Shown piece by piece: positions 29,931 to 53,005 of a DNA stretch of 64,000 nt. Position 1 is the first letter of the stretch, and the number at the start of each line of letters is the position of its first letter. The notes beneath the pieces are model-generated. The model was not told where the DNA came from. It saw nothing but the letters and a program-made list of their open reading frames with translations, and searched no databases. Source of the stretch: Apostichopus japonicus (taxonomy: Eukaryota; Echinodermata; Holothuroidea; Aspidochirotida; Stichopodidae); NCBI RefSeq assembly GCF_037975245.1, contig NC_092577.1:33800898-33864897 (forward strand), given 5' to 3'. The translations under genes and the position numbers were made by a program.

Positions 29931-32018
29931 TCAGCATTTTGAACTGGTTTGGTCTGAATTATCAGTGGAGTCACCCATCAACTTAATTCCAACCGATGTA
30001 GTTTTACCTTTTTCTGTGAAGCTTACATTAAGTTGTGTGGATGGTGGACTTTTGACAAAACTTTCATTAAGCTCGTTTTCCCGCGTATAATTTTCATCAT
30101 CATGCAGCTTATTTTCAGTGATGTGAACCAAACCATCAATTTCACCTGAATGGTCATCATTGCCGTTCTTAATGTCCCTATCAGCGCCACCACCGAAGAC
30201 GAGCTTCTTCCGGGGCTTTTCAGAAGAAGAGTTGTTTTCGATTTCTTTGTTGTTCTTATCTTGAGGTGTCCTCTTGCGAAGCCCATTTGCACCAATGTTA
30301 GATGGACTCTTGGCTTCAGAATTTGGGTATCCTGTGTTCTTGCTTTCCTTATTTGGTGTCCTCTTGCGAATCCCATTTGCACCAATTTTAGATGGACTCT
30401 TGGCTTCAGAATTTGGGTATCCTGTGTTCTTGCTTTCCTTATTTGGGGTCCTCTTTCTACATCCATTTGTACCCTCTGTGGGTGGACTCTTGGTTTGAAA
30501 ACTTTGATCGATTTTACTTTCTTTCTCACTGAGGTTGTTTTCTGTTAGGTTTACCACCAATTTTTTAGCCTTCATGCCGCCTGATGTTCTGTTGTTGCCA
30601 GTTGTACGTGGCGTCTCGACATCTGACATCTCAGTTTTATTATCACTCGATCGTCTCGGAGAGCTGTAATCTTGCATTCGACTGACGGCTTTCTTTAACA
30701 GTGTTGGGGTCTTGCGGGATTGAATGATTGCTTCTGTCAGTTTTTCAATTCTTTTGTTTGTTTGGCAGAGACAGATGGCAAGAATAACTGTGAAAAATGT
30801 CAAAAAAAACAAAAAAACGAAGACAACCACAATAACAAGGGGAACAGCCCAACCATCCAACATTGATATGAAGGTATGATGGGTGACATTAATGTTATGT
30901 GACACCGGGGGAATCTGTTCCCATTGCATTTTCCAAATTACATGATTTCCCTTCGAAGGTTTGACCGTAGTCTTCATGACGTCATCGGCGGGTTTAATCG
31001 TATGTGTTTTCGACGTTGTTGTTTCAGGACACATGGTATCTTCGGGAGTTAGGTCTTTAGCCAAGACTGTTTCGTTAGTAACTGGGTGTATACATGTCCA
31101 AGTGCAAGCATCACGTGACGTCTCGTCCCTCTGTATCCACTCCCGCACATCATCGAAGGAGCAATCACAACTGAATGGGTTACCATCAAGTAATAACTTA
31201 TCAGTTACATTAATGAAATAAGTAATATTAGTGGCGTCAGATATCTCATTATTCCTAATATCTAGTGTTTGAAGTCCCATCAACGGCTCACTACTCAAAG
31301 GTCGTGGAATGGACTGTAACCGGTTATTGGCCAAAGTTATGGTTTCAGAGCATAATGCAATATCAAACAACTTTGGTGAAACTTCTACAATTGAGTTACT
31401 GCTCAAATCAAGAATCTTTAAATGATGCAGGGGTTCTAATAAACCGTTTGGTATGCGTGTTAGTTGATTTGAATTGAGATGAATGCGAAGAAGAGCAGAC
31501 AAGTCCATGAACAAATTTGGAGATAAATCCGTCAACATATTCTGTCCAAGAAACAAAGCTGAAAGTTTAGTCAAGTTAGAAAACGTACCTTCACTGATTT
31601 CAAGTAAATTGTTCCTGTCGAGGTGAATTTGTTCAATGGTGTCTTGAACACTGTAAAATATCGTCTCTGGTAATATCGCGATATTATTCTGAGACAAGTC
31701 GATACTGACAACCTTTCCTAACCCTGAGAATGATCCAGGCTGAACGTCGGTTATCACGTTGGACGATATATCGAGATTCTCCACGTGGCGATAATGGAGA
31801 AAAGAATTGTTCGGCAGAGAGGTTATCACGTTGAATGATAAGTCAAGAACACGAGCTGCTACACAACCGTGATGTGACGGTAACCGGTCCAGTTCTGATT
31901 CACTGCAGTCAGCGATACTATACTGGCTGTCGTAGAAACACTCATTCTTGCAAGAAGGGCTGGCGAATCCATCAGAAGCCAACAGTTGAATCAGAAACAC
32001 AGCCACCAATATGTTTTC
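29931..32018 (-). CDS. LRR single-pass transmembrane protein 2, long basic tail; start exon missing
   Basis: 695 residues from acceptor TTTATTACAG|GAAAAC at 32018. No in-frame ATG precedes it, so the start lies in an unlocated upstream exon. Order: rest of signal peptide (ILVAVFLIQLLASDGFA), LRRNT (CKNECFYDSQYSIADC), nine to ten LRRs, LRRCT (GNPFSCDCSFDDVREW), stalk, a helix at about 393-418 (VIVVVFVFLFFLTFFTVILA), then a tail of about 277 residues rich in Ser/Thr/Lys. The tail has two full and one partial copy of a 30-residue unit containing KRTPNKESKNTGYPNSEAK. The ectodomain is almost identical to LRR protein 1, but the stalk, membrane helix and tail are not. The long tail with many S/T-P sites suggests intracellular signalling, by inference only. 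Confidence 0.86.
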   Translation of the reverse strand, partial: ENILVAVFLIQLLASDGFASPSCKNECFYDSQYSIADCSESELDRLPSHHGCVAARVLDLSFNVITSLPNNSFLHYRHVENLDISSNVITDVQPGSFSGLGKVVSIDLSQNNIAILPETIFYSVQDTIEQIHLDRNNLLEISEGTFSNLTKLSALFLGQNMLTDLSPNLFMDLSALLRIHLNSNQLTRIPNGLLEPLHHLKILDLSSNSIVEVSPKLFDIALCSETITLANNRLQSIPRPLSSEPLMGLQTLDIRNNEISDATNITYFINVTDKLLLDGNPFSCDCSFDDVREWIQRDETSRDACTWTCIHPVTNETVLAKDLTPEDTMCPETTTSKTHTIKPADDVMKTTVKPSKGNHVIWKMQWEQIPPVSHNINVTHHTFISMLDGWAVPLVIVVVFVFLFFLTFFTVILAICLCQTNKRIEKLTEAIIQSRKTPTLLKKAVSRMQDYSSPRRSSDNKTEMSDVETPRTTGNNRTSGGMKAKKLVVNLTENNLSEKESKIDQSFQTKSPPTEGTNGCRKRTPNKESKNTGYPNSEAKSPSKIGANGIRKRTPNKESKNTGYPNSEAKSPSNIGANGLRKRTPQDKNNKEIENNSSSEKPRKKLVFGGGADRDIKNGNDDHSGEIDGLVHITENKLHDDENYTRENELNESFVKSPPSTQLNVSFTEKGKTTSVGIKLMGDSTDNSDQTSSKC
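30271..30470 (-). repeat. 90-bp in-frame coding repeat in LRR protein 2 tail
   Basis: Unit length 90 nt (30 codons): copies start at 30271, 30361 and (partial, diverged) 30451. The copies keep the frame, so the tail length can change by slippage without frameshift. Confidence 0.85.
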
Positions 32019-32329
32019 CTGTAATAAAGAGGGAGGTAATAAAAGTAAATTATGTCGCTGCAATTAGGTATCTTACATAAAGACTTCAATCCCTAAATCC
32101 AACCAGTTAGATAAGAAATCTAATACATCTGACAAGTGCACTGTAGCCTAAGTATATTGATATTTTTTTTTTTACTGTAGGTGGTTTCTGCCATTTAAGG
32201 AATATAACCTTTGGAAACAGGTTTGGTGCATTTTGTTGCGTTTCTTAGGAACTGAGCGGGATACCAAGATGGGAGTTGGACCAAACTTTTTTTTTTTAAC
32301 TTGTTCCGTGGTATTTATTTTTACTTAAA

Positions 32330-33564: not shown

Positions 33565-34130
33565 TCCCAGGAATAAATTTACCTCAAATTTACCGAGGTA
33601 ACATACCACACTTTTACCCCGGGCGGTAAAACCGGGGTAAAAACGCGGTAAATTTGTTGTACATTACCGCGGTGTTTTGGCCCTATGGACGCCGTAAACC
33701 GCAGTAAATTACCACAAATTTACCATGGTTTTACCTCACTTTTACCGCAATTTACCACGGTGTTACCATACTTTTACCGCGCTTTTACAACACTTTTACT
33801 ACGCTTTTACCCCAAATTTACCGTTCTTTTACCCCAATTTTACCGTATATTTACCACGCTTTTCCCTTAGTTTTACCTCAATTTACCATATTTTACCACA
33901 GTTTACCATTCTTTTACCCCAATTTTACCCTAGATTGACCACGCATTTACTACACTTTTACCCTAAATTTACCACATTTTTACCATTCTTTTACCCCAAT
34001 GTTACCGTAGATTTACCACGCTTTTACCTTAGTTTTACCTCAATTTAGCATACTTTTACCCCAATTTTACCGTAGATTTACTACACTTTTACCTTAGTTT
34101 TACCTCAGTTTACCATGATTTTACACTAAT
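33565..34130 (+). repeat. TTTACC-type tandem array, left
   Basis: Irregular 10-20 bp units built on ttttaccgc, ttttacccc and atttacca. They are almost all in one orientation after an initial stretch with ggtaaa dyads. Phe/Tyr/Leu/Thr-rich open frames across it are artefacts. Confidence 0.88.
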
Positions 34131-34710
34131 TGTAGGAGTTTTACCTAACATTGAGCATGATTTTGTCCTAACTTCAATCAGCATGTACACCATATATTTC
34201 TTTGAATTTCACCCATCAGTGTACTGTATCATAATTTGGCTATATGCATTTACCCTTATTGTAATGGTTGTATGCCTGACATGTAAGTCCTCAGTTGTAG
34301 AATGCAACAGTTTTTAATTCATCAAATCCATGGAGGTTTCACACATGAGAAAGCTTTGTTGAATTTCAATTACCCTAGATAGTCTGATTCCTGACTCTCT
34401 TCTTTTGACTTAATTGGTAGTCCAGATTGGACTTTTGATCTCTGATTGTTCTCAAAGACTTGTTTTAAAACGAAAGAGTACTGTGATCATCATCATATCA
34501 TATACATCGTATTACGCTTCCACCCGAAGGTGCTTCAGCAGACTAAGGAAATCCTTAGTCGGAAATTATTGAGGTTCCAAGTTTTTGTGTGCGTGGAAAG
34601 ACACCGGCGAATCTCGCCTTCTCTTTTCGAATAGTGCCCTGAAGTAACGAGGCAGGGGTGTGTAGTCCTGCTCCCGGGACCGCAATTCAACGTCCCCTCC
34701 GAAGGACGTG
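34131..34710. other. interval between TTTACC array and GATATC element
   Basis: Ordinary sequence, more GC-rich at 34600-34710. No gene recognised. Confidence 0.3.
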
Positions 34711-34735
34711 AGTACCGTATGGCAAGCCGTTTTAC

Positions 34736-35252
34736 TTTTTATTCGATATTTGATGATATCATCAAATATTTGGTGATATCAGCAAATAATTGTTGATATC
34801 ATCAAATCATTTGATGATATCATCAAATAATTGCTGATATCAACAATTATTTGATGATATCAGCAAATAATTGTTGATATCAGCAATTCATTTGCTGATA
34901 TCAGCAATTCATTTGTTGATATCATCAATTCATTTGGTGATATCACCAAATAATTGCTGATATCAATAAATAATAGCTGATATCAACAAATATTTGCTGA
35001 TATCAGCAAATGAATTGGTGATATCAGCAATTGAATTGATGATATCAGCAAATCATTTGCTGATATCAACAATTCCGACATATCACTAATTAATTAGTGA
35101 TATGAGGAACCGAATTGCTGATATCATGAAATGATTTGGTGATATCATTAAAAGATTTGCTGATATCAGCAATTGAATTGGCGATATGTTGGAATTGCTG
35201 ATATCAACAATTCATTTGCTGATATCACCAATTCATTTGCTGATATCAGTAA
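34736..35252. repeat. left GATATC array
   Basis: Units such as tgatatcagcaaatgaattg, spaced 20-21 bp. Bases flanking GATATC vary mainly at two positions, and several units are full 18-20 bp palindromes (e.g. atttgatgatatcatcaaat). Confidence 0.92.
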
Positions 35253-35768
35253 TTCAAGCGTATCGAACCAACGTCTACAAAAAGGAATTAGAAACGAGCG
35301 CAATCAACAGGCATTCTTTTTGGGCTTAAGGGCGCTGTTTGGCTGGTAGCGGGCACAGAAAGGCGCCTGGTGCGAGGTTAATTTCAGCCTTGGTTATAGC
35401 GATCAACGGGAGGGGAAAGGGGACTAAGTTACACAGTACCACTACTGCCACTGGGAGACCTCCGTGGCTACCCATGCACTTGTGACAGGGAGGACAAACA
35501 TTGGGCAAGCACCGAGTAGGCCAGGCCTATAAACCTATGAAAAATAATATCGGGGTGGTTAAGTAGCTCAATATGAAATACCAAAATGTAAAAGTATACC
35601 CTGGTCGGCGGGCGACAGAAGCAGGCTGGGAACTGTGTCCATTGGACTGGCTCCCCGATGGTGGCTGCGATTTGTTTCAAATATTGGGGTGGGGGGACTT
35701 TAACTTGGGTGCAGACGCGTAACAATTCCCCCACCCCAAATTAAAATTGTTCGCGCACTTCGTTATTT
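35253..35768. other. interior of GATATC element, left part
   Basis: Moderate GC, no recognisable coding domain. Short open frames on the minus strand lack family resemblance. Confidence 0.3.

Positions 35769-35848
<80 letters not shown>
35769..35848. repeat. (TA)n microsatellite
   Basis: About 80 bp of uninterrupted TA inside the GATATC element. Confidence 0.95.
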
Positions 35849-35851
<3 letters not shown>

Positions 35852-35864
35852 GTATATATAAATA

Positions 35865-36497
35865 CAGGCGTGTATCCAGGATTTTCTAACCCGGGCGCGC
35901 GATCGAATTACTATCTAAGCGGAGCGCCACAGAAAATTTCTGGTTTTGATAGCCCCCAGATCACAGGAAATGGCACTTCTCGGGCTTGAAAATGATCAAC
36001 AAGTTGTACACTTTGGCCTGAGAATCAAGTTTTTCCAATAGTTTTTTTTTTCATCCATAACCTTTTTCAAGATTGTCACCAGTCACACATCATGTTCGAC
36101 CTCATCGCTTCTCCTGTGGATCATTGCTTTGGAAGGTAATACTATGTAACGGCCTATACAATACCCGTCAGCCCCACTTTTCAAGGTTTGAAGCCCATTA
36201 TTTGTTCAGAATTTGAATTATAAATTCACTTCAAAATATATCCATAAATGTTGCACAAAATTTCATCTATGGTCAACCAATATAGAAAAAAAACCTTCAA
36301 CCCCTAACAAACCGGTCAAAATGGCACGAGTAGAGGAGAGGGAAGTATGATGAAGAATGTTGGTCAGGGAATTTTCGAAAATTCAGACACAGTTAATTTA
36401 TTGTGTACAAATATTATAAATATAAAACTTCGATATCGTTAAAAAAGACAAAAAATATCTTCGCCCCACCCCCCCCCCCTACTTGGCTACGTGCCTG
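35865..36497. mobile_element. MITE-like insertion inside the GATATC element
   Basis: Left end caggcgtgtatccaggattt, right end ccctacttggctacgtgcctg. Reverse-complementing the right gives CAGGCACGTAGCCAAG, an imperfect inverted match. It has a CAGG-type end like the MITE at 4060-4350. No clear target duplication, possibly because the left flank is TA-repeat. Confidence 0.5.
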
Positions 36498-37230
36498 CGG
36501 TTAGAAATCTTGTAGGAAACAGGCCAAATGGAAACCCAGTGAACCCATATCGATGTGGATCATATATATGATTGTACGTACTTACACTCATTCACAAGAG
36601 ATGTACAGACATTATGATAATAATCATGAGTGACAACATGCTATACGGTCACAGGAACGACGACGAAGAGTCATTTACCTCATAGCGCATGTGTTGGATG
36701 AAGTTTAAGCCACCGCCAAATAGGATTTGGATAAATAATCTCATGCATTATTTTCTATTTATAGCCACACAAAAACACTATGCCACCAAATATTGGGGGG
36801 GGGGGGAGATATTAGATACTATATCCCCCACCTAAAATATGTCCCCCCCCCATGATCGCCGCTCATGGCTGCAACATTCCGTTCCGTCTGGCTGTGCCTG
36901 TGCGTCTGCGATGGAAAGGAGCTGATCGTGCACAGCTGCTATTGAATTGAACCTATGCTCATCGATGCTCGCGTTAATCCGTTCTAAATTTCTCTTTGCT
37001 TTGGAGAAGACGTTCTTTCGCTTCAGAAGCATTCTCATTGCCAGTTAAGAGCCTATCTACTGCGCCCCGAGAACTTCTGTCAATAATGCTTCATCAAGTT
37101 TACCGCAATCGCCAAGGTGAAAGTAACGCTACCCGTACCCTGTTGTCTCGTCACTGTCATTTGCATGTACTGCTTAGTACACTGACATTGTGTGCGCATG
37201 CTTGTAAGACGGGCTGCCACGGTTGAATTA
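36498..37230. other. interior of GATATC element, right part
   Basis: Contains G/C homopolymers (36796-36850). A minus-strand 68-residue frame (36832-37038, RKNVFSKAKRNLERINASID and onward) looks helical and charged but cannot be assigned. It might be a relic of a gag-like or captured exon. Confidence 0.25.
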
Positions 37231-37236
37231 CTGATA

Positions 37237-37712
37237 TCATCGTCACGGTTGAATTACTGATATCAGCAAATGATTTGTTGATATCATCAAATGAATTGGT
37301 GATATCAACAAATGAATTGGTGATATCAACAAAAGCATGCATTAGTGATATGTACGGTTCATTTGCTGATATCATTAAATCAATTACTGATATCACCAAT
37401 TGATTTGTTGATATCAGCAAATGAATAAGTGATATGTTGGAATTATTGATATCATCAAATGATTTGCTGATATCACCAATTATTTGATGATAACAGCAAA
37501 TAATTGTTGATATCATCAAATGATTTGCTGATATCACCAAATAATTTGCTGATATCACCAAATAATTGCTGATATCTGCAAATATTTGTTGATATCAGCA
37601 ATTATTTGTTGATATCAGCAATTATTTGATGATATCAACAAATGATTTGATGATATCAACAATTATTTGCTGATATCACCAAATATTTGATGATGTCATC
37701 AAATATCGAATA
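37237..37712. repeat. right GATATC array
   Basis: Same unit family as the left arm, in inverted arrangement at the outer end. It is followed by the inverted terminal sequence reading gtaaaacggcttgccat outward. Confidence 0.92.
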
Positions 37713-37741
37713 AAAAGTAAAACGGCTTGCCATAGTACCGC

Positions 37742-38165
37742 TTCCCACGATACCACGAGAAATACTGTGATCATAGATACCTAGACCTGTCAAGTCATTT
37801 AATGGACCTGACAGAGAATACCCAAATCTGAGGACACTGATTGGTCAATTTTCGTGTGCTACAGTGTCGAGGCACAGAAGCTATGCCTTATGTGTGCTAG
37901 TTTATATAGTTCTTTTTTCATTTTAAAGGCTTTTAGGTTCTCCCAAATAATGAAAAAAGAATTAATTGTTGTCTCCTCTCAAATATATCAGGGATTCCAT
38001 GAAGGAATTCTCTATGCATCTATCCTCTGCTTCTTTTTTTTTTAGGAAAAGAGATGCATACTATAACATATAAGAATAGCAGTTTGTCTCTCTTCTTTAT
38101 TCAACTCGAATCCACAGGTAATTTATTAAGATATGAATACAACAAAAGGTTTGTCATATCAGTCT
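37742..38165. other. unassigned interval
   Basis: Sequence between the GATATC element and the next array. Nothing recognised. Confidence 0.3.
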
Positions 38166-38169
38166 TGCA

Positions 38170-39045
38170 AAAATATGGGACAAAATCATGGAAAATTGCT
38201 GTAAATTTACCATCATGTTTCATAGTGTGACCCATATATATTCTACTGTGGTAAAATCATGGTACAATTATGGTAAATTTACCATAGTATAATTGCACCA
38301 TATAGTTTTACCTTATTTTTACTGTGGTTAATCATGGCACAATTGTAGGAATTTCACATATGTAGTTTACGTACCATATAAACTTACCCTACTTTAACTA
38401 CAGTAATATCATGGTAAAACTATGGTAAATTTACCGTAGTAAATGTACCACGCTTTTACCCTACTTTTACCGCGGTAATACCATGGTAAAACTGTGGTTA
38501 ATTTACCGTAGTAAATGTACCGCACTTTTACCCTACTTATACCGCGGTAATATCATGGTAAAACTGCGGTAAATTTACCGCGGTAAATGTACCACACTTT
38601 TACCCTACTTTTACCGCGGTAATACCATGGTAAAACTGTGGTAATTTTACCGTAGTAAATGTACCACTTTTACCGCGGTAAACCCTGGTAAAACTGCGGT
38701 AAATTTACCGCAGTAAATGTAACACACTTTTACCGCGGTAAACCATGGTAAAATGCGGTAAATTTACCGCAGTAAATGTACCACACTTTTACCCTACTTT
38801 TACCGCGGTAATACCATGGTAAAACTGTGGTAAATTTACAGTAGTAAATGTACCACACTTTTACGGCGGTAAACCATGGTAAAACTGCGGTAAATTTACC
38901 GCAGTAAATGTACCGCACTTTTACCGCGGAAATACCATGGTAAAACTGCGGTAAATGTACCGCGGTTGATTTTACCACACATTTACCCTATTTACTACAC
39001 ATTTACCATAGTTTACCGCGGTAAAATTAGGGTACATTTTTTGCT
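38170..39045. repeat. TTTACC-type tandem array, right (dyad form)
   Basis: Composite units of about 70-100 bp mixing both orientations, e.g. tttaccgcggtaataccatg then gtaaaactgcggtaaattta. Many short dyads appear (taccgcggta, taccatggta, aatttaccg/cggtaaatt). Clearly related to 33565-34130 but with palindromic phrasing. Confidence 0.9.
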
Positions 39046-39859
39046 GTAATTAGTAATAGAATGTAACACCAAACGGTTTCAGTTGTTTTCCGCATACGTT
39101 ACTTTCCGCTGAAAAAAAACTGCGGAAAACACCTTTTTTTCACTTACCTGTACACTATATTTTTCCGCAATTTTAGGATACCAAATTCAGGCAGGATGAT
39201 TAAAATAACATGAGAAAGTATCAAAGAACGTCGATCAAGGATGGTTAGACTGAGTTCATGTCAGAAAAGTTAGACTGCTTATAATTTAGAGGAGGCTTGG
39301 GGTGTTTGTAATTAGGGATTATTAAGAAGTATGAGGCGGTCGGCGGATAAAAGGGCAAAGGGACGCCCGCGTTATGAAGGATTGAGTATCTAATAAAGTA
39401 TTAAAACTGCGGTCCGATGATGGTTTAAAAAAAAAAGTTGTGAAAGGCGGTATCTTTGATTTTCGCTGGAAATGGCTGTATCAGTAAGGCATGTCGAAAA
39501 CTACAACCCAAAAAGGTGGCGCTGTTTAACTAAAATTAAACTTGTGCTTACAGCCTAAGCTAGTGCTTACAGCCTAAGCTACAACCTTAGCTATCCTAAA
39601 TCTAGTCTCGAAGCTACATTTTATCCTGTTACAGTCAAATCCTATCTTCTCCATCTTCCTAAATCCTTCCATATGCCTAATCATTTCAGTAAGTCATTCT
39701 GTTCCTCCCAAAAAAAAACGGTACTTTCCGCTGAAAAAACGTTGTTTTCCGCTGACAAATTTGCATTCAAATCCAAAAAAGTCCTGCACAAAATCCTGCG
39801 GGATTTTATGCAGGAATTATGCCAGGATTTGGCCACATCCTGCAGGATTTATGTAGGAT

Positions 39860-40775
39860 TCCTACAAGAAATTTTGCAGGATTTTAAAGGGCTATGCAGG
39901 ATAATTTACAGGAATGTACAGGACTTTTGAAAGACTTATGCAAGATAATATACAGGATTGTACAGGACTTTTGAAAGACTATGCAAGATAATTTACAGGA
40001 TTGCACAGGACTTTTGAAAGACTATGCAAGATAATATACAGGATTGTACAGGACTTTTGAAAGACTATGTAAGATAATTTACAGGATTGTACAGGACTTT
40101 TGAAAGACTATGCAAGATAATATACAGGATTGTACAGGACTTTTGAAAGCCTATGCAAGAAAATTTACAGGATTGTACAGGACTTTTGAAAGACTATGCA
40201 AGATAATTTACAGGATTGTACAGGACTTTTGAAAGACTATGAAAGATAATTTACAGGATTGTACAGGACTTTTAAAAGACTATGCAAGATAATATACAGG
40301 ATTGTACAGGACTTTTGAAAGACTATGCAGGATAATAAACAGGATTGTACAGGACTTTTGAAAGACTATGCAAGAAAATTTACAGGATTGTACAGGACTT
40401 TTGAAAGACTATGCAAGATAATTTACAGGACTGTACAGGACTTTTGAAAGACTATGCGGGATAATTTACAGGATTGTATAGGACTTTTGAAAGACTATGC
40501 AAGAAAATTTACAGGATTGTACAGGACTTTTGAAAGACTATGCAAGATAATTTACAGGATTGTACAGGATTTTTGAAAGACTATGCAAGTTAATATATAG
40601 GATTGGACAGGATTTTTGAAAGACTATGCAAGATAAAAAACATGATTGTACAGGATTTTTTAAATACTATGCAAGATAATATACAGGATTGTACAGGACT
40701 TTTTAAAGATTATGCAAGATAATTGACAGGATTGTACAGGACTATTAAAAAGATTATGCAAGGTAATTTACAGAT
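39860..40775 (+). repeat. left ~43-bp tandem array of the foldback element
   Basis: About 20 units of gattgtacaggacttttgaa followed by agactatgcaagataattta. Single-base variants only; the last three or four units drift. Stop codons occur in every unit. Confidence 0.93.
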
Positions 40776-41170
40776 CTGAATACTGTTTATTGGCATTTGT
40801 ACATCCTGATTACTAGAAATTTTAGTTCTTTAAAGAAAAAAAAGGCAAAAGTGGAAAGATGACTTTGCCAAGTAAAAGTCACCATCAGTCTATAATAGTG
40901 TTGGTTAAAGCCACTTTTAAGAAAAAACTGTCCAGAAGATCTCCTTTGAAAAGTTAAGTTGTAAGTGACAGCAACATACTTTCCATATCCTGGATTTAAA
41001 TATATAAAACTAAATACCATTTAATGTCAAACAATAACTGTTAAAAACAAAATAAAAAATTTGGGTTTAAAGTTTAATCCCACTTTGAAAAAAGAACTGT
41101 CTGGAAAAATTCCTCTGAAAAGTTAACTTGTAAGTGAAAGCCACTTTGGATGGATGGTGTCAAGCAGGCA

Positions 41171-41291
41171 ACTGGGCTGACTCTGGATGGACTGCGAGGG
41201 GCAACCAGGAGCCGGAAGGATTGGAGGATGAAAGCCATGGTCATCGGGGGTCAGACACGACTGGACGGTACAAGTTCACAAGTTAAGTGAC
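41171..41291 (+). pseudogene. possible LINE C-terminal fragment
   Basis: One frame reads VKQATGLTLDGLRGATRSRK then DWRMKAMVIGGQTRLDGTS. This resembles the tail of LINE reverse transcriptases, which end in a Trp-Gly-x-Ser/Thr-Leu...Arg...Trp-Arg pattern. Only about 40 residues, so the call is tentative. It lies in the foldback interior. Confidence 0.4.
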
Positions 41292-42433
41292 AGCAATATG
41301 CTGTCAGTTTGAATAAAACTAAAGACTGTTTAATGGTAAGCAATAACCATTGAAAACAAATAATATGCTACTAATGTTTAAAGGCCTTCTTTGTTTTATG
41401 ATCGATGTCAGCTTCTTGGATATGTATTTGCTGAATCTTGCAGCTCCCTCAGTAAATTGCAGCTTTCTTTCAAACATTCCGTGCTGCAAGAAACAAAGTG
41501 AATGAACACTTAAGAATTGACTTATCATGATTTACAGTAATAGTGTGATCCTAAAACTCTCTTGCATTGCTAGATGAGTGCTTTCATGGAAAGTTAAGTT
41601 CAAACTTTCCTGGGGTTTAGAATGTCTCACAATATTTATCTCTGTTGGTATCCAACCTATATGGACTAGCAATCAGTCCAACCAAGTACATTCTTTTGTC
41701 TCAAATCCAAAGGAAAAACCTTCTCACCTAATTGAAAGATGAACTTTGAAGATGAAGCAACAATTGATTCTTGAATTATGACAATCACAAAGTTCTGAAA
41801 CCCTCCAAGGGCAAAATATACACCATGACTTAAAGCAACTTTCTTTTTTGGAGTTATAGCATTGACAAGCATTTTAGAGTTAGACCTCTACTGACCATGA
41901 ACTTATAACAACATATAGGTAGTATGCTTACCAACAGCAATAAACATAATTGTACAAACTTGAAATTTCAAGTGAGGTTATGTATTCCATTATAATCAGA
42001 AAGTAATGCAATGCCTAGGTAGCTTAAATAACATAATGGTAAAGAACTTCTACCACCCAAAGATGGTTCTATAATTAGCAGAGATTTTAGCAACTTCATA
42101 TATATATTATATACCAACACAAAGAATGTCTTTTCAGTTTTGCATGCATCTGATCTGTTGCCCTTCGCAAAGGGCAAGCTAGCTTTTGTTTCTGAACATT
42201 AGATGGACAATTTTTGTTTTGGTTTAGAATTTGGGTTCGCTCAATCTTTTGGTTGGAAAAACTACACCACTATGGTAGCTACTGGAATGCATAATTCTAC
42301 TGATAAATAGTTCTGTCAGTGTTACAAAATGATTTACTCCTGGAAAACAGCTTATCCAGTAAATTATTTTGTACACTTGTGTACTAAGTCATGAGCTTGT
42401 AATATAAATGTTACTCGTTTGAAAGCTTTTAAT

Positions 42434-43256
42434 AATTACTAACCTTTCATAGCATTAACCTTCATGGGAGACAACAGCGGTTTTGCATCTCTGTCACTGT
42501 TGAATCTTGGAAAAGAGTTCCTCACGACTTTCATTTTAAAGTGTTGGTACCCCAAATTGACACCAGTAAAGTTTCACGAACATATAGTGTTTCTCTTAAC
42601 TACAAATGGCCTCCCACTTGTCTTCAGGAAGCCAAAAATCTGCACCAATATTAACCTGTGAACAGAAAATATGATATACTGTACATGTAAGCAAGCATAG
42701 ATACAGATTTAGCACATGATAACTCACATTATCATAAACATATATTAAAATTTTATAACATATTGGGAGGTAAACATTTAATTCTAGGTCCCTCAAATTA
42801 TAAGCCAGGAATAGCAGCTTATCCAAATAATTATTTTGCACAGTATAACACCAAGTTATTTTTCTAAGCTTAATAATCATGTTTATAATGTAAATACTCA
42901 TCCCAAATCTGTTAAAAATTCGCCTAACTTATGAAGCTTGCACGTAAATGATGTACCAGACTGTTCTTCTTTTAAAACAGGTAATGAAAAGTATCTTTAT
43001 TGTCATTACACAGTAGGGTACAATAGTTAAACTCACTCTTCCATCTTTTTTCTCTATGGCACTTGTTCCTTTGCTTTTGGACTCTCGGATAAACTCTTTG
43101 GTCCTGCAAAGGGTACACATACAGTATATCAACTTAACACAAAATGTCTTTAAGCCATATAACACTTTTCTCCACTTCTGTTGTTGCCTCCACACTGGTG
43201 TAGTACATCACAGGAAACCTCACCCTTGACCTGGATATTTGGCTTTTCAATTCTTC
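42434..43256 (-). other. chain of coding-looking exons inside the foldback element (unrecognised)
   Basis: Short minus-strand segments have splice consensus at both ends: 43256 (TTTTTCCAG|GAAGAA) to about 43224-43232; 43103-43037 (TTTGCAG|GAC...AGA|GTGAGT); 42655-42618 (TTCACAG|GTT...CAA|GTGGGA); and about 42520-42436 (...VRNSFPRFNSDRDAKPLL..., then AAAG|GTTAGT). Peptides such as TKEFIRESKSKGTSAIEKKD and VNIGADFWLPEDKW look protein-like. I do not recognise the family and some joins need weak sites. It could be a captured host gene, the element's own gene, or noise. Confidence 0.25.
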
Positions 43257-44107
43257 CTGGAAAAAGGAAATGGCAAAGAAGTATTCATCATTTGAAGAAA
43301 ATGAAATAAAGTTGTTACCACAAAAAGGTTGTGAGATTTGCTTCCACAATAGTCTCAAAAAAGCAATTCCAAAGTTTGATGCAGACTGTATAAAGCTGAA
43401 CATTTGAACAAGAGTGTCCTCACCAGAATCAAATGCCCAGACTACAGAGATAATAAAACATAGGCTAAATCTTTGTTTGTTTTTATGATCTAAAAATATA
43501 AAATTTTAGAAACACAAATGCACTGAACCAACTTATTTATACTATAGGCCTAATCGTTTTTAGTTGTTATATTGCTTGCTCACTTAACATTAACAAGCCT
43601 GTTCAGACCTAGGCTAGAGAAGAATCAGTACTTTGTTACTCTAAGTTTGTCTTTCGATCCTTTCATTTAGTCTTACTAATAGTGCTAAAGTATATTATAC
43701 CGATGACTAGCCAACATAATTTGTTCAGCCTACTGTACTAGTACTGTATGTTTGAAGATTTAGCCTTGCTTTATTCAATCACATACTAGGCCTACATAGC
43801 CTACAGGCCCTAGCCTACCCTGTACCCATTTAGATTCACGTGGGAAACTACAGAAAATCTTTACCAAATGAGTGTAGGCTTCAAATAAAGTATTGAGTCT
43901 TAGTCCCAGCATTTGTTTGGAAATACATAGAAGATGATGTGCCACTGTGTTCAATCTAGCCCAAAACACACATAACACAATGTTAACTGATGTTTTTAAT
44001 GCAGTTTGGTGTAAAGAATGCCACAGTAGAAGCCTAAGCTACTCACTGTCATTGCACTTGTGTATTGCAAAACGCCAGCCTAACGACGGTTACACTCACC
44101 ATATTAG

Positions 44108-44604
44108 TATAGTCAGTATTGCGAAGTTCGACATACTGCGAAGTTCGGACCACCCTAAGAAATACACGATTTCACCATGAAAACCTACAGGAAGAGTCAA
44201 ATTTCACCAAAAAGTACGAAGCTACAGTTATTTTCTCTCCAAAATGACCCGTATGCAATAAATTACTTACATATTTGTCGATAAAATGACGAAGATCTAT
44301 GAAGTCTGTTATAATTACTGAAAGAGCAACTGCGCCACCAATTTTATCACCAGCGCCACACTGTGGGTTGCGTGTCCGAACTTCGCAATACTCTAGCAAA
44401 GAAATACCAGTTCCACAATCACGAAGAATCTTCTTGGAAAACAACGTGAAAACAGTTTGCAGGAAAGAAAGTTTGGCCGTGTATCGTACTATAACAAAAT
44501 TCTCCCACCATATGAAGTATATTTTCAAATGATTTATACCAGAAGATTTAGTTTTGGGGTGTTTTAAGTCTTAAGTGTCCGAACTTCGAAGTCACCATCC
44601 TACT
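44108..44604. repeat. inverted CGAAGTTCGGAC motifs (possible MITE)
   Basis: attgcgaagttcg at 44115 and gcgaagttcggaccacc at 44139 face cgtgtccgaacttcgcaata (from 44371) and aagtgtccgaacttcgaagt (from 44573). Ends are inverted but no target duplication is clear. A 118-residue minus-strand frame over it (44172-44528) shows no known domain. Confidence 0.4.
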
Positions 44605-45234
44605 AGTGGCCTGACAATTAACGTTATTTTTACCTCCAAGTTTAAGGAATAACAGGTAGGCGGTTAATAATTCCATTCTTCTGTAGACCTTCTTGGGTGA
44701 GTAACAGTTGAAAGTTGCTTAGAAATTTCCACAAAAATTATTTTGTAAATCAATTTATTTGTATCAGAGTGATCGTGTAAAACTATGCCAGGCAATGCTT
44801 ACGCTGTGCAGAAGTTAAACAGCTGCCTACGCGTTGCTTCGCGGTTTCGAATTGAATATGGTGTTGGAGTCAAAGGTCAACTTAAACCTCGTACACAATG
44901 TGATTATAAAAAATGGAGAAAATTGTCTTAGACCTCCCAATTTGAGAGTTTCGTGTTACTGAAAATTATGAATATAATTAATTTATATCAAAAATTTAAA
45001 ATAACGATAAATTGGGAAAAGTTGAATCACAATATAAATTGTACATTAATTATTTTAATCTTGATCTTGACTTGGCAATATGCGTTTTACTTTCAGTGAC
45101 TATGAATCACTGATCTAAATATAGATGCGAGCTCATCTCAATCACATCAAAATAATGCAGGTGTATGCTGCGTATTAAATTATAAACTGGAAGAACTTCT
45201 CTCTCATAAATTATGAACTATCCTTTAATTTGTC
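44605..45234. other. foldback interior, right part
   Basis: AT-rich. No gene or repeat recognised. The left interior (40776-41170, 41292-42433) is likewise AT-rich with a diverged internal duplication ('aagttaa.ttgtaagtgacagc', about 40900-41140 and 41275-41360). Confidence 0.3.
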
Positions 45235-47190
45235 ATGCATAACCTTAAAAGTCCTGTACAATCCTGTATTTAACTATCTTGCATAATCTTTTAAAATCCT
45301 GTATAATTTCTTGCATAGTCTTTCAAAAATCCAGTTCCATCCTGTATATTATCTTGCATAGTCTTCAAAAATCCTGTATATTTTCTTGCATAATTTTTTT
45401 AAAATCCTTTATGATCCTGTAATTATCTTGCATAGTCTTTCAAAAGTCGTGTACATTCCTGTATATTATCTTGCATAGTCTTTCAAAAGTCCTGTACAAT
45501 CCTGTATATTATCTTGCATAGTCTTTCAAAAGTCCTGTACAATCCTGTATATTATCTTGCATAATCTTTTAAAATCCTGTACAATCCTGTAATATCTTAT
45601 GAAAATATATATTAAAAGTCCAGTGCAATCCTGTAAATAGTCTTTCAAAACTGCTGTTAAATCTTGTAATTTGTAAAATTAAAAGTCTTTTACAATCCTG
45701 TAAATTGTCTTGCATTGTCTTTTAAAAGTTCTGTATATTATCTTGCATAACATTTTAGTAATCATGTACAATCCTGTAAATTATCTTGTAGTCTTTTAAA
45801 AGTCATGTAAAATCCTGTAAATTATCTTGCATAAACTTTAAAAACAATTCTGCACAATCCTGTTAATATCCATGTATATTTACTCCAGAATCCTGTAAAA
45901 TCCTGTAAAATTTCTTGCATAGTCTTTGAAAAATCCGGTTCCATCCTGTATATTATCTTGCATAGTCTTTCAAAAATCCTGTAAATTTTCTTGCATAAAT
46001 TTTTTAAAATCCTTTATGATCCTGTAATTATCTTGCATAGTCTTTCAAAAGTCCTGTACATTCCTGTATATTATCTTGCATAGTCTTTCAAAAGTCCTAT
46101 ACAATCCTGTATATTATCTTGCATAGTCTTTCAAAAATTCTGTACAATCCTATATATTATCTTGCATAGTCTTTTAAAAGTCCTGTACAATCCTGTAAAT
46201 TATCTTGCATAATCTTTCAAAATCCTGTAAATTTTCTTGCATAGTCTTTCAAAAGTCCTGTACAATCCTGTATATTATCTTGCATAGTCTTTCAAAAGTC
46301 CTGTACAATCCTGTAAATTATCTTACATAGTCTTTCAAAAGTCCTGTACAATCCTGTAATTATCTTGCATAATCTTTTAAAATCCTGTATAATTTCTTGC
46401 ATAGTCTTTCAAAAATCCGGTACAATCCTGTAAATTTTCTTGCATAATCTTTTAAAAGTCCTTTACGATCCTGTAATTATCTTGCATAGTCTTTTAAAAG
46501 TCCTGTACAATCCTGTAAATTATCTTGCATAGTCTTTCAAAAGTCCTGTACAATCCTGGAAATTTTCTTGCATAGTCTTTCAAAGTCCTGTACAATCCTG
46601 TATATTATCTTGCATAGTCTTTCAAAAGTCCTGTACATTATCTTGCATAGTCTTTTAAAAGTCCTGTACAATCCTGTAAATTATCTTGCATAATCTTTTA
46701 AAATCCTGTATAATTTCTTGCACTGTCTTTGAAAAGTCCGGTTCCATCCTGTATATTATCTTGCATAGTCTTTCAAAAGTCCTGTACAATCCTGTAAATT
46801 TCTTGCATAATCTTTTAAAAGTCCTGTACAATCCTGTAATTTCTTATGAAAATATATTAAAAGTCCAATGCAATCCTGTAAATAGTCTTTCAAAACTGCT
46901 GTTAAATCTTGTAATTTGTAAAATTAAAAGTCTTTTACAATCCTGTAAATTGTCTTGCATTGTCTTTTAAAAGTTCTGTATATTATCTTGCATAACATTT
47001 TAGTCATCATGTACAATCCTGTAAATTATCTTGTAGTCTTTTAAAAGTCATGTACAATCCTGTAAATTATCTTGCATAAACTTTAAAAACAATTCTGCAC
47101 AATCCTGTTAATATCCATGTATATTTACTCCAGAATCCTGTAAAATCCTGTAAAATATCTTGCAGAGTCTTTTAAAAATCATGAGTACAA
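45235..47190 (-). repeat. right ~43-bp tandem array with ~1.25-kb higher-order repeat
   Basis: The reverse complement of the left-arm unit: agtcctgtacaatcctgtaa then attatcttgcatagtctttc. About 45 units. A distinctive variant block (near 45597-45900) recurs with few changes about 1.25 kb later (46845-47160), so the arm itself has been segmentally duplicated. Confidence 0.92.
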
Positions 47191-47279
47191 TGTAAATACA
47201 TTCTCGCATATTTCTAGTAAACAACGTAATGGAGTGCCTCTATTAATTAATAGAGGGAGAGAAAATAATAGAGAGATAA

Positions 47280-47770
47280 ATTTCTCCAAATATTTAAAAA
47301 CTCATACATGTACAACGCGAATGAAGGATTCTTGCATGCATACAGTATGAAGGATTCCTGCATGTAAGGAGTCCTGTGTGCATATGTGAAGGATTTTTGT
47401 ATGCAACCCTAATTATTTTGTATAAAGGATTCCTACATGTGTATGAAGGATTTCTGCATGTGTATAGACTGAGTGAAGGATTCTTGTAGGTTAATGAAGG
47501 ATTCCTGCATGTTTACGAAGGATTCTTGTATGTGTATTAAGGAATCCTGCATGCATATGAAGGACTCGTGTACGTAAATAAAGGAATCCTGCATGCTTAG
47601 GAAGGATTCCTGTACAAGCATCATGGAATCCTGCATGCATATGAAGGATTCTTGTACATAAATGAAAGAATCCTGCATGTGTATGAAGGATTCCAGACTG
47701 TGGCTGAAGGATTCCTGCTTGCATTTGAAGGATTCATGTTTGTTAATGAAGAGTTTTTATAGTGAATTCA
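47280..47770 (-). repeat. second tandem array (aaggattcctgcatg units)
   Basis: About 14 units of 30-35 bp built on gaaggattcctgcatg and gaaggattcttgtat, between the ~43-bp array and the terminal TTTCCGC region. Confidence 0.85.
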
Positions 47771-47990
47771 AGAATCATGTATTTTTGTAAAAGAATCCTG
47801 CACTACATTGAAAAAATCAAGTTTCTAACACTAAGTGGTTTATAGTTCAATCTCCATTTGGAAGGAATCCTGTTCCATATGCAGATTCCTGCAGGACTTT
47901 TTTGTATGGGCAGCTGCATGTTTGCGGAAAACACCGTTTTGTTTCAGCGGAAAGTAACATGTGCGGAAAATAACGGTACCCACACCAAAC

Positions 47991-48662: not shown

Positions 48663-49456
48663 GTGAGTAGAAGAGAAATCATAAACGTCATTTGGAAGTA
48701 AAGTTGTTTAGAAAATCTTTGAAATGAGACTAATGTGGGTAGGCTTCAGTATCGCCAAATTCACGTAGGCCTAGGCTAGGACGTGGCGTACACAACGTTG
48801 TTTCGATTTTGGCCAAACTATTGTTAAAACTCATTCGTACGTAGAACATATTATGCTGCAAATTACAATACAATAAGAATGGAAAAGAGAACGATGTAAC
48901 ACTAACGGTAAATTTAGTGATTCAGTAAAAACCATTGTTGTACGGTGTTGGCTACAGTACTGGCTAGGCCTATTGTGGTTAATTCACTTAGGCTAGCAGT
49001 TGCAGGTGCACAGTGACGAAGATAATTAGGGTCAAGAGAATATGAGTCCCATTCTTACTTGCATATGTGGTCGTCTGTTTGGAGTGAAAGAGGAAGGGGG
49101 TGGGGGGTTGGAGTAGTTGCACATGAACCACTTTTCAGGTTTCTTTTGAACAGATTGGACTGTCTTTCAATCTTTCTTTAAAAGGGGTTCACCCTATGGA
49201 CTTACTTTTTGATAGCCTTCCCATAGTTCCATTTATGTCAGTTGAGATACGTTACTCCGTAATTGATACTGAAGCAGTTATCTATAGAATATTATGGAGA
49301 ATCCTTCAGGAATTTCCATTAGCTGTGCCATTTTACATTTGTTAAAAATTTAAAATGCAGTCATAATTATTGCAAAAATATCACACGTTTCATGGATCGT
49401 ACAGTCTTTCTTCTATTAAATACTTCTCCTTTTGTCTTTTTCAGATTTCATCTATT

Positions 49457-51055
49457 ATGGTGAGGATATGTGTAATTTTTGGCTGTGGGAACAGTACCAA
49501 ACATATAGACAAATGGTTAGCTCAGCTGTGCGAAGTACATGGTCTAATGTTCGGAAGCTGTGTATGCAAACCACCGTTTAGCCTCTTTCCGTTTCCATCA
49601 GAAAAGAAGCATCCATATAGACGTCAAGCATGGGTCAAGTTGGTTAACAGAAAGGGAACTGATGGCAAGAATTGCAAACCACAAACGTATTCTAGGATTT
49701 GTTCCAAACATTTTAGGGATGGAGAACCTACAGAACTCAATCCAGATCCCACAGAATTACTTGGATACGATTTGATTTCTACATCCTCAAAGGGTAAACT
49801 TCCAAGGAAACCACCATTAAAGCGTTGTTCCCCATCCACCAGTGAAAAGCTGGAAAAGGCAAAGAAGCAAAAAGCAGACTGTCCTGAAGCTAAAGTGCCA
49901 ATTCCTGCTTCATTTCATACGAAAATTGAGACAGAAGATTATCAACCAGAGTACACTCCAGCAGTAGACCATTCGTATGGTTTTCTTGGAAATGACTGTA
50001 CTTCTTGCAAAAGTAAGAATGACCGAATTTCAAAGTTAAAAGAACGACTAAACCATTTAAGGACAAAAAGTAAAGCTCGCAGCAAATGCTCGTCAAGGAG
50101 TTACTTCTCTATCTGTAACATTGTACTGAAATCTGACTCAAGCGTGAACTCATACACAGGAATTCAAAGCAGGGACAAGTTCATTGCTTTTCATAACTTT
50201 TTACTTCCAAAAGTTGCAAAAATGAGGTACTGGTATGGATGCAAGAAGTCTTCTCCAAGGAACACACCAAGGGGTAAAAGGACCCCAATGAAACGAGGAC
50301 CTGCAAGAAATCTCACTGCTAAGGAAGAACTCATAATGGTACTAATGAAGTTAAAAATGTCGTTGACGATGGCATTCCTTGCAAGTTTATTCTTTGTTTC
50401 AGGTGGTACAGCCTCGAACATATTTACTACATGGATTAAATTCCTTGCATTTGAACTGAAACCATTCATTTTATGGCCTGACAAGGTGCAAGTTCTGACA
50501 AGCATGCCACCGTCTTTGAAAAAGAAGTACCCAAATCTTCGATGCACATTGGACTGCTCTGAAATATTTATAGAACGTCCCAGGAACTTGGAACTGCAAG
50601 CATTAATATGGAGTGACTATAAGCATCACAATACGGTAAAATATATGGTAGCAATAGCCCCCAATGGAATGATATCCTTCTTATCAAAAGCATGGGGTGG
50701 AAGAACATCAGATGTGCACATCACTAAGGAGTCTGGATTCTTGAATCTTATTGATCCTCATGATTTAATCCTTGCAGACAGGGCTTTCACAATTAAAGAA
50801 GAACTTCTCCTCAAACAAGCTACCCTCGAAATCCCACCCCCAAGCAAAGGAAAAGAACAGCAGGCACCAGAAGAAGTTGGACGCACCAAAAAGATTGCTA
50901 ATGCGCGGATTCACGTCGAGCGGGCCATTGGCCGCATGAAATGGTTCCGTATTCCGAAGGACACTTTACCAATTACTCTTATACCTCTTGTTGATGACAT
51001 TAATACTGTTTGCGCTGCTTTGGTGAATCTACGTTCTCGTTTGGTTTCATTGTAA
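49457..51055 (+). CDS. THAP-domain DDE transposase (ISL2EU-like), intact
   Basis: 532 residues. N-terminal THAP zinc finger C2CH: C5, C10, C82, H85 (SRICSKHF), with conserved W59 and a NPDPTEL end. An insert between C10 and F41 adds CVC and WLAQLCEVHG, as in transposon THAPs of this group. Residues 110-250 are a linker with a short basic helix; a predicted DNA-binding helical region lies at 270-340. A DDE_Tnp_4-type nuclease has candidate triad D366 (TLDCSEIFIERP), D441 (LILADRAF) and E488 (HVERAIGRMK). It should bind transposon ends and cut and paste them in the nucleus. The ATG at 49457 follows a splice acceptor at 49444; the open frame upstream is intron. No stop or frameshift. A domesticated host gene is possible, but the neighbouring YqaJ gene argues for a transposon. 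Confidence 0.9.
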   Translation: MVRICVIFGCGNSTKHIDKWLAQLCEVHGLMFGSCVCKPPFSLFPFPSEKKHPYRRQAWVKLVNRKGTDGKNCKPQTYSRICSKHFRDGEPTELNPDPTELLGYDLISTSSKGKLPRKPPLKRCSPSTSEKLEKAKKQKADCPEAKVPIPASFHTKIETEDYQPEYTPAVDHSYGFLGNDCTSCKSKNDRISKLKERLNHLRTKSKARSKCSSRSYFSICNIVLKSDSSVNSYTGIQSRDKFIAFHNFLLPKVAKMRYWYGCKKSSPRNTPRGKRTPMKRGPARNLTAKEELIMVLMKLKMSLTMAFLASLFFVSGGTASNIFTTWIKFLAFELKPFILWPDKVQVLTSMPPSLKKKYPNLRCTLDCSEIFIERPRNLELQALIWSDYKHHNTVKYMVAIAPNGMISFLSKAWGGRTSDVHITKESGFLNLIDPHDLILADRAFTIKEELLLKQATLEIPPPSKGKEQQAPEEVGRTKKIANARIHVERAIGRMKWFRIPKDTLPITLIPLVDDINTVCAALVNLRSRLVSL

Positions 51056-51788
51056 GCCATATTTTCTCAGCCAGGCTCCATAGACTTTCTAGCCTCAATT
51101 TTTTCCAGGGTTGAAAATGTTATGTTAAAGTTCAAGAAAGTTAAATGTCTCTTTGTTATGAGTTTCACCTTCAATATTCATGTCATTTCTTGTTTATTAA
51201 ATACTGCAGCACATAACCATTTGTTACAATTGATTTTTGAACAACTTACTTTTAAATGAAAACTTAGGGCCCAATACAATATAAAAGAGGAAACTTCAAT
51301 GGCTACTTTCATTCAGTTTCTGGAAAAGTGTACCAACACCAGTCTCTCACCCCCCCCCCCCCATTTTTCAGATTCTGTTCCCAGTGCCCCCATTCCTCCT
51401 GGAATATTTAATAAATGTTGCAGATGAGCTGTCAATTGCCACATGAAAACAAAAAGCATATAATAATAATTCTACAGTACTAACAGTGTGAAAGAAAGTA
51501 AAGAAGTGAGCATTGAAATATATCGAAACGTTGTATACTCTGTAATTAAAATTTGTATATCTATCAAATCTTTACCTAAAAGATTCACTGCAAGGGCTGG
51601 AAAATATGTATCGCAATACGGAGAAAATTGTCACTTATTAATACCCCCCCACCCAAAAAAAAAAAAAAGCAAAAGAAATTAAACTGTAATATCAACTTGA
51701 AAGCAGTACTTATATTTGCTCACAACATGAAATAACTAAAGGAATGTCTCACAATTGAAAGAAAACTAAAAACTACTGTGTGAAAATC
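51056..51788. other. gap between the two convergent transposon genes
   Basis: AT-rich with an ATTAAA near 51197 that could end the transposase mRNA. C-tract at 51349-51362, C/A-rich patch at 51644-51668. Nothing coding recognised. Confidence 0.4.
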
Positions 51789-52810
51789 TCATGCATTTTT
51801 AGACTTAAAAATATCTTTAGATAAAAGTTCAATTGCCAGGAAGTTTCTGAAGAAGAAATCACTGAGTCTCTTCATTTCTAACCAATACTCCTGATCAAAA
51901 AATGTTCTAACTTTTAAAAATCCATGTCTTGAATATAAAAACAAGTCACACCATTTGGTCCCAGAAACTGCCATTTCTAAAGTTACTTGGGAGTAGTACG
52001 CATGTGATTTCTTTAAAGTTGGTTTTTCTTCTACTTCACATATATAATCCAAATTGTTACAAGTTGGTGTTGTGTGGGAGACTGAGAGGGGGCACTTAAT
52101 CTCCAACACTCCTTTTCCACAGCACTCGCAAGAAATTATGCAATCTGGACTTGCTGCCAGGAACACATGGTCTGCACACACCAGTAAACCACTTTCTTCT
52201 ACCCTTAATTTATGGCCCTCAGCTTTCATGGTGGATATGTACTTATCCCGAGCTTCGCTCTCCATTTCCCTCCCATACTTCAAGGCAGGGATGTTTGGAT
52301 TTACATCGCTGTAGAGAATTCTCTTTAGTAAACATGTGTTATCCACATCCTCACCCTTCTCAAGCCTACGAGCTCTAGTTAAGACAGAGTGGACAATGGA
52401 TCCTGTGATACGACCTTTCCTTTCTTCGAACCAATAAGAGTTGTTGGACTGGCCTCTTGTTTTCTTCTCTATAAGTGTTACTGTCGAGGATGAATATACT
52501 GGGATGGTGAGAAGGAATTCCTGTATGCTTCTTGATAGGTCTGCTAGAGCAACAAGTGAAGTAGGTATAGATGTTTCCACTTCAACCGTTTGTCCTAAGT
52601 TGATATCAGCAGAGGGTTCCACTGTTGTTGTTATGGGCATCTGTTCACCTGTTGAACAATATGCAAAGACACAGGCATCTGGAAAAGCATGTTGGAGTGT
52701 CTTCAACCCCTCTAGGCTTGGAAGACTTTTTCTTTGAGGAATTGGAGTACTGGCTTGAGGTAAAAATAGTTGCCTGAATGCTGGGTTGATTCCCTCTGAT
52801 GATGGTTTTG
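51789..52810 (-). CDS. YqaJ-like exonuclease domain (main exon of transposon ORF2)
   Basis: About 340 residues from acceptor CTTCCTTAG|C at 52810. The C-terminal 230 residues carry the YqaJ/lambda-exonuclease-type restriction-like fold. Visible are WFEERKGRITGS, ALKYGREMESEARDKY, then the catalytic core SPDCII...GKGVLEIKCP (Asp and Glu-x-Lys) and YYSQVTLEMAVSGTKWCDLF. Partner proteins of this type accompany THAP-DDE transposases in ISL2EU elements; their exact role in transposition is unproven. This exon itself is open and its catalytic residues look complete. It joins the SWIM exon upstream (53006-53179) in the wrong phase with the best-looking donor, so the full gene is probably disabled or the junction differs. 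Confidence 0.82.
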
Positions 52811-53005
52811 CTAAGGAAGGTAGAAAGGGGATAAATGAAAGCTGTTATTAATTCTATCCAGTAAATATCATGTTTTTCATATCTGGAGAGTATGCAGTAT
52901 TCTTTTATCAGTTACAGGTAGCATCAACTTGAAGATACAATTAAGTTTAATTACTATTATTGTCTTCAAACAACTAAGTTACTGTCTAACTGTTAGAATA
53001 CTGAC

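Follow-up and report, generated by a model that had tools for sequence, protein, structure and literature searches.

The locus discussed here is an 8.9-kb structure at positions 39066 to 47990 of a 64,000-nucleotide stretch of the genome of the sea cucumber Apostichopus japonicus (C17:33800898-33864897; this whole stretch is the window referred to below), in which two arrays of a 43-bp tandem repeat lie in opposite orientation on either side of a 4.4-kb interior. The first-pass annotation had taken it for a single foldback element with a 9-bp target duplication, a captured interior and a possible MULE-type relative. Our analysis, for which the whole assembly was searched (671.58 Mb, 35 contigs), suggests with a probability of roughly 90% that it is instead two nested mobile elements, a non-autonomous foldback of the TRC/CACTA type lying inside an unrelated miniature inverted-repeat transposable element (MITE). 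The outer MITE is bounded by the 9-bp target duplication ACACCAAAC on its left (39066-39074) and right (47982-47990) and is split into a left part on the plus strand (39075-39763), which comprises the GGTTTCAGTTGTTTTCCGC... end, the middle and the first half of a subterminal hairpin as far as GACAAATTTG, and a right part on the same strand (47919-47981), with the second half of the hairpin and the right end. The inner element occupies 8.15 kb between them (39764-47918, plus strand), overlapping the empty loop by two bases, TG, and its family-matching part runs from 39775 to 47910.

The inner element begins with a left subterminal zone of GTCCTGC and ATCCTGCGGGATTT repeats, whose outermost CCCATAC is degenerate (39775-39876, plus strand), followed by a left arm in which the 43-bp unit is repeated 20.8 times and the motif [CA]A[GA]GA recurs every 10-12 bp (39877-40773, plus strand). 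A core with no recognised coding domain (40774-45212) separates this from the right arm of about 37 inverted 43-bp units (about 45240-47165, minus strand), where the main row from Tandem Repeats Finder (TRF) gives period 43 and 36.4 copies, 37 CTTGCA units can be counted, and a stretch of about 0.6 kb is seen by eye to be present twice, some 1.25 kb apart. The outer right arm continues in repeats of the TGAAGGATTCCTGCATG type with periods of 21 and 42 bp (47320-47751) and closes with an intact right terminus, CCCATACAAAAAAGTCCTGCA on the minus strand (47890-47910), so that of the element's own ends, CCCATAC...GTATGGG, the right is intact and the left degenerate in this copy. Long inverted tandem-repeat arms around a middle domain are what defines a foldback, and the best pair between the two arms spans 197 nt at 94% complementarity; the identification as a foldback-type mobile element and the 4.4-kb length of the interior both stand, as do the two opposed arrays, although they hold about 21 and 37 copies rather than the 20 and 45 first given. 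Within the core lies a separate 0.49-kb insertion (44103-44591) flanked by TCACCAT (44096-44102 and 44592-44598), which is absent from related core copies and has 98-99% identical copies on several chromosomes; judging by these copies it is a small, recently active element.

The evidence that the outer sequence is an element in its own right comes from its sibling copies. The word ACACCAAAC occurs four times in the window where 0.78 occurrences are expected, which taken alone is weak evidence for a target duplication. At least eight of nine flanking bases match, however, in 25 of 31 paired MITE end sets, a level reached by 9 of 3000 pairs of random sites, and this makes the 9-bp duplication believable; the test takes the best of 25 small shifts, and the 31 sets include the window itself and a few mispairings (for example L033 139-1064). 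The outer inverted repeat, with TTTTCCGC ends, measures 39 bp at 90% identity and scores 58, where none of 500 shuffles exceeded 28. The terminal 135 bp of the MITE have at least 41 genomic matches (best 40 of 328 candidates), and 23 of these 41 alignments begin precisely with the base that follows the 9-bp duplication. The seven loci that were fetched (L002-L008) hold elements of about 0.4-1.2 kb with the MITE left end, the same right end and the subterminal hairpin, and contain the MITE middle (39200-39712) whole or in part; the array and core sequences, searched with the same script, had no match in any of them. The 9-bp duplication is visible by eye in six of the seven, the exception (L002) being a copy with an internal duplication. 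Both the duplication and the inverted ends reported by the first-pass annotation are therefore real, but they belong to the MITE (39075-39763 and 47919-47981) and not to the foldback that landed in it. A 9-bp duplication lies within the 8-11 bp range of MULE/Mutator elements and fits a MULE-like MITE, and a Merlin-like origin may be an alternative.

The point of entry can be read from the same siblings. The hairpin loop GACAAATTTGTTTGCGG, with small variants, was found by pattern in 31 of 33 short-copy MITE loci, the two that the pattern missed (L025 and L027) being 712-bp elements with no room for an insert, and it is unbroken in all seven short copies checked by eye. In the window the MITE sequence stops at GACAAATTTG (39763) and resumes as TGTTTGCGG (47919), with TG at both edges, and so 39764-47918 is an insert. 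We also considered a longer loop with a CA duplication as the target and rejected it, since no examined short copy has such a loop.

The inner element belongs to a family that can be followed across the genome by its ends. A scan with CCCATACAAAAAAGTCCTGCA, allowing up to two mismatches, found 70 ends (36 on the plus and 34 on the minus strand) compared with 2 for the reversed control. Thirty-eight of them form 19 convergent pairs spaced from 145 bp to 12.7 kb: eleven of 145-232 bp, three of about 1.2 kb, four others of 7.1-8.5 kb and one of 12.7 kb. Matching 2-bp flanks are present in 16 of the 19 pairs (null rate 0.075; P = 7e-16), the duplicated dinucleotide being AT five times, AA three times, TG and TA twice each, and TT, CA, CG and GA once each. 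Two copies of about 1.2 kb, L076 and L077 on C8 and C10, have reverse-complementary flanks and thus represent one insertion duplicated between chromosomes, which brings the independent count to 15 of 18. Whole copies are found on C7 (L059, 7,125 bp) and C11 (L060, 7,249 bp), with true ends CCCATACAAAAAAGTCCTGC...TTTTTTGTATGGG and the complete order of ends, array, core, inverted array and ends; two further copies on C16 have paired ends around core matches. Because L060 sits within a 125-bp satellite its empty site is known, and the uninterrupted satellite unit shows a TA duplication. Other copies of the foldback, as first supposed, do exist in the genome.

Of particular relevance to classification is the 12.7-kb copy (C17:20118461-20131132), which has the family ends, GA on both flanks and both 43-bp arms, one 85% identical to the window over about 0.6 kb and the other 75% identical over 2.25 kb. 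Between its arms is a 290-aa frame that matches Transposase_21 (Tnp2) with an E value of 5.7e-6, followed by one stop and then an in-frame stretch of 179 aa without a Pfam match of its own. A second transposase copy (C3:30888234-30889641) matches the first over 1.4 kb with 98% identity, scores 29.9 bits, above the Pfam cut-off, and lies about 3 kb from a CCCATAC-type end (C3:30885259). The transposase pieces, compared separately, are 31-44% identical to the Transposase_21 proteins of L061 (C3), L091 (C16) and L089 (C17), with a best E value of 1e-63, and 22-26% identical to those of L088 (C11) and L090 (C7, itself under the cut-off); the L061 protein is the best blastp partner of the 290-aa piece among the five compared. 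Transposase_21 has 20 matches in the genome, 15 of them over the cut-off, and none in 14 control genomes, a weak control because the three that are named are prokaryotes. The relative with a transposase gene that the first-pass annotation envisaged has thus a counterpart in the 12.7-kb copy, but one of the Transposase_21/CACTA type with 2-bp duplications and not a MULE.

The marks by which TRC elements are recognised are a CCC terminus, a 2-bp duplication (found in 7 of 14 copies there) and Transposase_21 (PMC1636069), and in a second report Hydra Spongebob is placed in TRC by CCC and 2 bp (PMC4298943). All three marks are present here: the CCC terminus in the family ends, the 2-bp duplication in most pairs as well as in all three sister-family copies checked (described below), and Transposase_21 in elements with the same ends. 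The canonical CACTA/EnSpm terminus and 3-bp duplication are absent, the ends being CCCATAC and the duplication 2 bp, and subterminal direct and inverted repeats of the CACTA/EnSpm kind are represented by the inverted 43-bp arrays. On the grounds of its CCC ends, 2-bp duplication and Transposase_21, the inner element is classified as a non-autonomous TRC/CACTA foldback; on duplication length and transposase type a MULE origin was rejected.

TRC elements, which form the animal branch of CACTA/EnSpm, include SmTRC1 of Schistosoma, the Tribolium and Aedes TRCs and Hydra Spongebob/EnSpm-4N1, and the group has CCC, 2 bp and Transposase_21 in common with the family described here (PMC1636069, PMC4298943). 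SmTRC1 is alike also in having a tandem-repeat region, but that is described as a single 3' region, with no foldback arms mentioned in the portions available, whereas the present element has inverted 43-bp arrays at both ends; a further difference from TRC is that most of our paired copies lack a transposase gene. Plant CACTA/EnSpm elements resemble it in the subterminal direct and inverted repeats inside short terminal inverted repeats and in a Tnp2-type transposase (PMC8978399, PMC4158355), and differ in having CACTA ends, 3-bp duplications and arrays of several hundred bases in place of CCCATAC, 2 bp and kilobases.

Drosophila FB elements have inverted arms built of tandem repeats. The TU elements of sea urchins, with an 8-bp duplication and a 15-bp arm unit, differ from the element described here in both respects when compared by description only; presumably they are the sea urchin foldback cited in the foldback literature. 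That foldback is alike in being an echinoderm element with long arms built of repeats, and FB, Tetris and Galileo are alike in their long inverted tandem-repeat arms and variable middle domain (PMC4079207). Most foldbacks are placed in Mutator, with exceptions (PMC4079207), and Galileo is placed, in other published abstracts, in the P superfamily; Tetris differs in its 8-9 bp duplications from the present CACTA/TRC element with its 2 bp.

The interior had been suspected to be captured sequence, and this proved not to be the case: it is multi-copy and, apart from the 0.49-kb insertion, mostly shared with a second family of transposons. A 4.2-kb core query gave at least 150 matches (best 40 of 1662 candidates). 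Sixteen core loci (L043-L058) include one copy with 43-bp arms (L045); in the other fifteen the match begins exactly at 40774 in every case and ends at 45212 in fourteen, with long segments at about 75-91% identity. Three inner stretches (about 41142-41285, 41699-42213 and 44095-44604, the last being mostly the 0.49-kb insertion) have no match in these loci, and what is shared is therefore the edges and most, but not all, of the core. Outside the core the fifteen loci run into different sequence that is common among themselves; TRF, run on six of them, reports 29-bp repeats, and 10 of 14 right flanks have CCTGGG followed by divergence. All three whole sister copies that were checked start with CCCAGG and have 2-bp duplications (GT, TT and AT). 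With CCCAGG ends, 2-bp duplications and shared core edges, the second family thus combines TRC-type ends and the same core with different arms. A six-frame Pfam search of the core gave no useful match (best E 0.073) and inspection by eye of core copies at 11 loci found no frame longer than 174 aa; capture of a host gene was rejected on these grounds. As a separate observation, L061 carries a 660-aa stop-free Transposase_21 frame (868-2847; C3:12237567-12239546) that overlaps the left end of a CCCAGG copy by 19 bp, the end lying at L061 2829; a sister-family element may have inserted in or beside this gene.

The arms of the inner element have a regular internal structure. Of the 72 intervals between successive [CA]A[GA]GA motifs in the left arm, 64 measure 10, 11 or 12 bp, as do 109 of the 139 in the right arm, and the core, taken as a control, has 15 occurrences in 2.8 kb with no such spacing among those listed. 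Given this spacing, the 43-bp unit can be divided into four 10.75-bp sub-units and would span about four turns of the helix. The sister-family left arm has a 10-bp period; its right arm has a period of 29 bp and lacks a 10-bp peak, so helical phasing is not universal. By analogy with the subterminal repeats of CACTA elements (PMC8978399), the motifs are probably protein-binding sites, and the arrays would most likely hold many such sites in phase for an element protein. A more speculative idea, which we regard as rather unlikely, is that arms are exchangeable modules, arrays of transposase-binding sites swapped or rebuilt around a core; it draws on the same-edged core with 43-bp units in one family and 29-bp and 10-bp units in the other, and on the near-helical motif phase in three examined arms. 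If it held, a non-autonomous element could change which transposase moves it.

Several observations weigh against the nested TRC/CACTA interpretation. At the left end of the window copy AAAAAAGTCCTGC is present and CCCATAC is not, and 8-11 odd bases stand at each junction, so the insertion is not a clean textbook case. Across the genome, 32 of the 70 ends have no partner in the list and three of the 19 pairs (L065, L066 and L074, the last readable as 3 bp) show no 2-bp match. The transposase of the 12.7-kb copy scores 26.1 bits, just below the Pfam cut-off of 28.6, both transposase copies contain an in-frame stop, at different points, and the other end of the C3 copy is not in the fetched stretch (L087). 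The 12.7-kb interior has no nucleotide match to the window core, the similarity being confined to the arms, and the window foldback is therefore not a simple deletion of that copy.

Among other explanations, the one that fares best, though improbable, is that the foldback is, or was at one time, cargo carried by the MITE, in the manner of a Pack-type composite. The insert is enclosed by two intact MITE ends and an intact 9-bp duplication, as this would require, but a perfect duplication is equally expected if the MITE was there first, and no second composite is present among the matches listed (best 40 of 328 and best 40 of 225). We consider it still less probable that the whole is one 8.9-kb MULE-type foldback with TTTTCCGC as its true ends, whose interior was captured and whose transposase came from a MULE. 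The perfect 9-bp duplication with inverted ends, and the 38 matches to Pfam MULE domains in the genome, would suit it; yet the siblings with the MITE ends (L002-L008) give no arm or core match, no second 8-10 kb copy joins TTTTCCGC ends to arms in the same two sets of matches, and at other sites the arms come with ends and 2-bp duplications of their own, are set in different DNA in L059 and L060, and enclose Transposase_21. That the arms are ordinary satellite beside an unrelated repeat, by chance or misassembly, is the least credible proposal: tandem arrays are common in the window, but the full arrangement recurs in L059 and L060, paired ends surround the core in two C16 copies, and the published assembly is described as HiFi-based (PMC10344927).

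Under the nested interpretation, the anatomy and the sibling copies show that a short non-autonomous element bounded by TTTTCCGC generated the 9-bp duplication on entering ACACCAAAC, and that the 8.15-kb foldback sits in the loop of its subterminal hairpin, where it probably arrived later. The inner element has lost, or never had, a transposase gene while keeping the family ends and both arrays, and for this reason movement in trans is presumed, by the Transposase_21 of a member like the 12.7-kb C17 copy. Slippage or unequal exchange could grow and shrink the arrays and so account for sizes between 145 bp and 12.7 kb.

The window contains several other mobile elements and genes. At 34712-37740 lies a second foldback-type element with inverted TATGGCAAGCCGTTTTACTTTTTATTCG ends (34718-37734), flanked on each side by GTACCG, whose inverted arms are built from a palindromic 21-bp unit (TTTGCTGATATCAGCAAA) around a 2-kb interior with many copies, 82-96% identical in long matches (best 40 of 3828 candidates). 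IS3EU elements are described in fungal families as having TATGG...CCATA ends and 6 bp (PMC12730594), and with such ends and a 6-bp duplication this looks like an IS3EU-like foldback. On either side of it are arrays of TTTACCGCGGTAAA and TTTACCACACTT units (33566-39033), with CCCAGGAATAAATTTACC as start at 33566 and GGTAAAATTAGGG as end near 39033, whose 2-bp flanks do not match; there is a hint in this arrangement of another TRC-like element. Two related leucine-rich-repeat genes, each a single long frame, lie on the minus strand (23448-24863 and 29934-32063). To the right, a gene with THAP, HTH_Tnp_4 and DDE_Tnp_4 domains (49367-51055, plus strand) converges on a YqaJ exonuclease gene (51789-52844, minus strand), and the two are, by their predicted products, the gene pair of an ISL2EU transposon; a search for the ends of this element at 49367-52844 identified none. 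A piggyBac origin of the inner foldback, to which CCC ends and a TTA/TAA flank had pointed, was rejected, as L060 has only TA and other copies differ. The neighbouring THAP and YqaJ genes had also prompted us to consider an ISL2EU origin for it. ISL2EU is marked by an AT duplication and GG ends (PMC4482050), to which the CCC ends and varied 2-bp duplications found here do not conform.

The mechanism class is already known; what looks new is a CACTA-derived foldback whose arms are in phase with the DNA helix and whose core is common to more than one family. No report of a CACTA/TRC-derived foldback, or of CACTA or foldback elements in sea cucumbers, was found among the open-licence titles and abstract openings listed, which is weak evidence of absence. 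The finding matters in that ends, arms and target duplication link a foldback with a CACTA/TRC transposase encoded elsewhere in its genome, within a family that spans a transposase-bearing copy, a foldback, copies of about 1.2 kb and a MITE. Two ideas can now be put to the test: that the arms of foldbacks are transposase-binding sites that have been amplified and, with the neighbouring IS3EU-like foldback in the window, that the foldback form may arise independently in several superfamilies.

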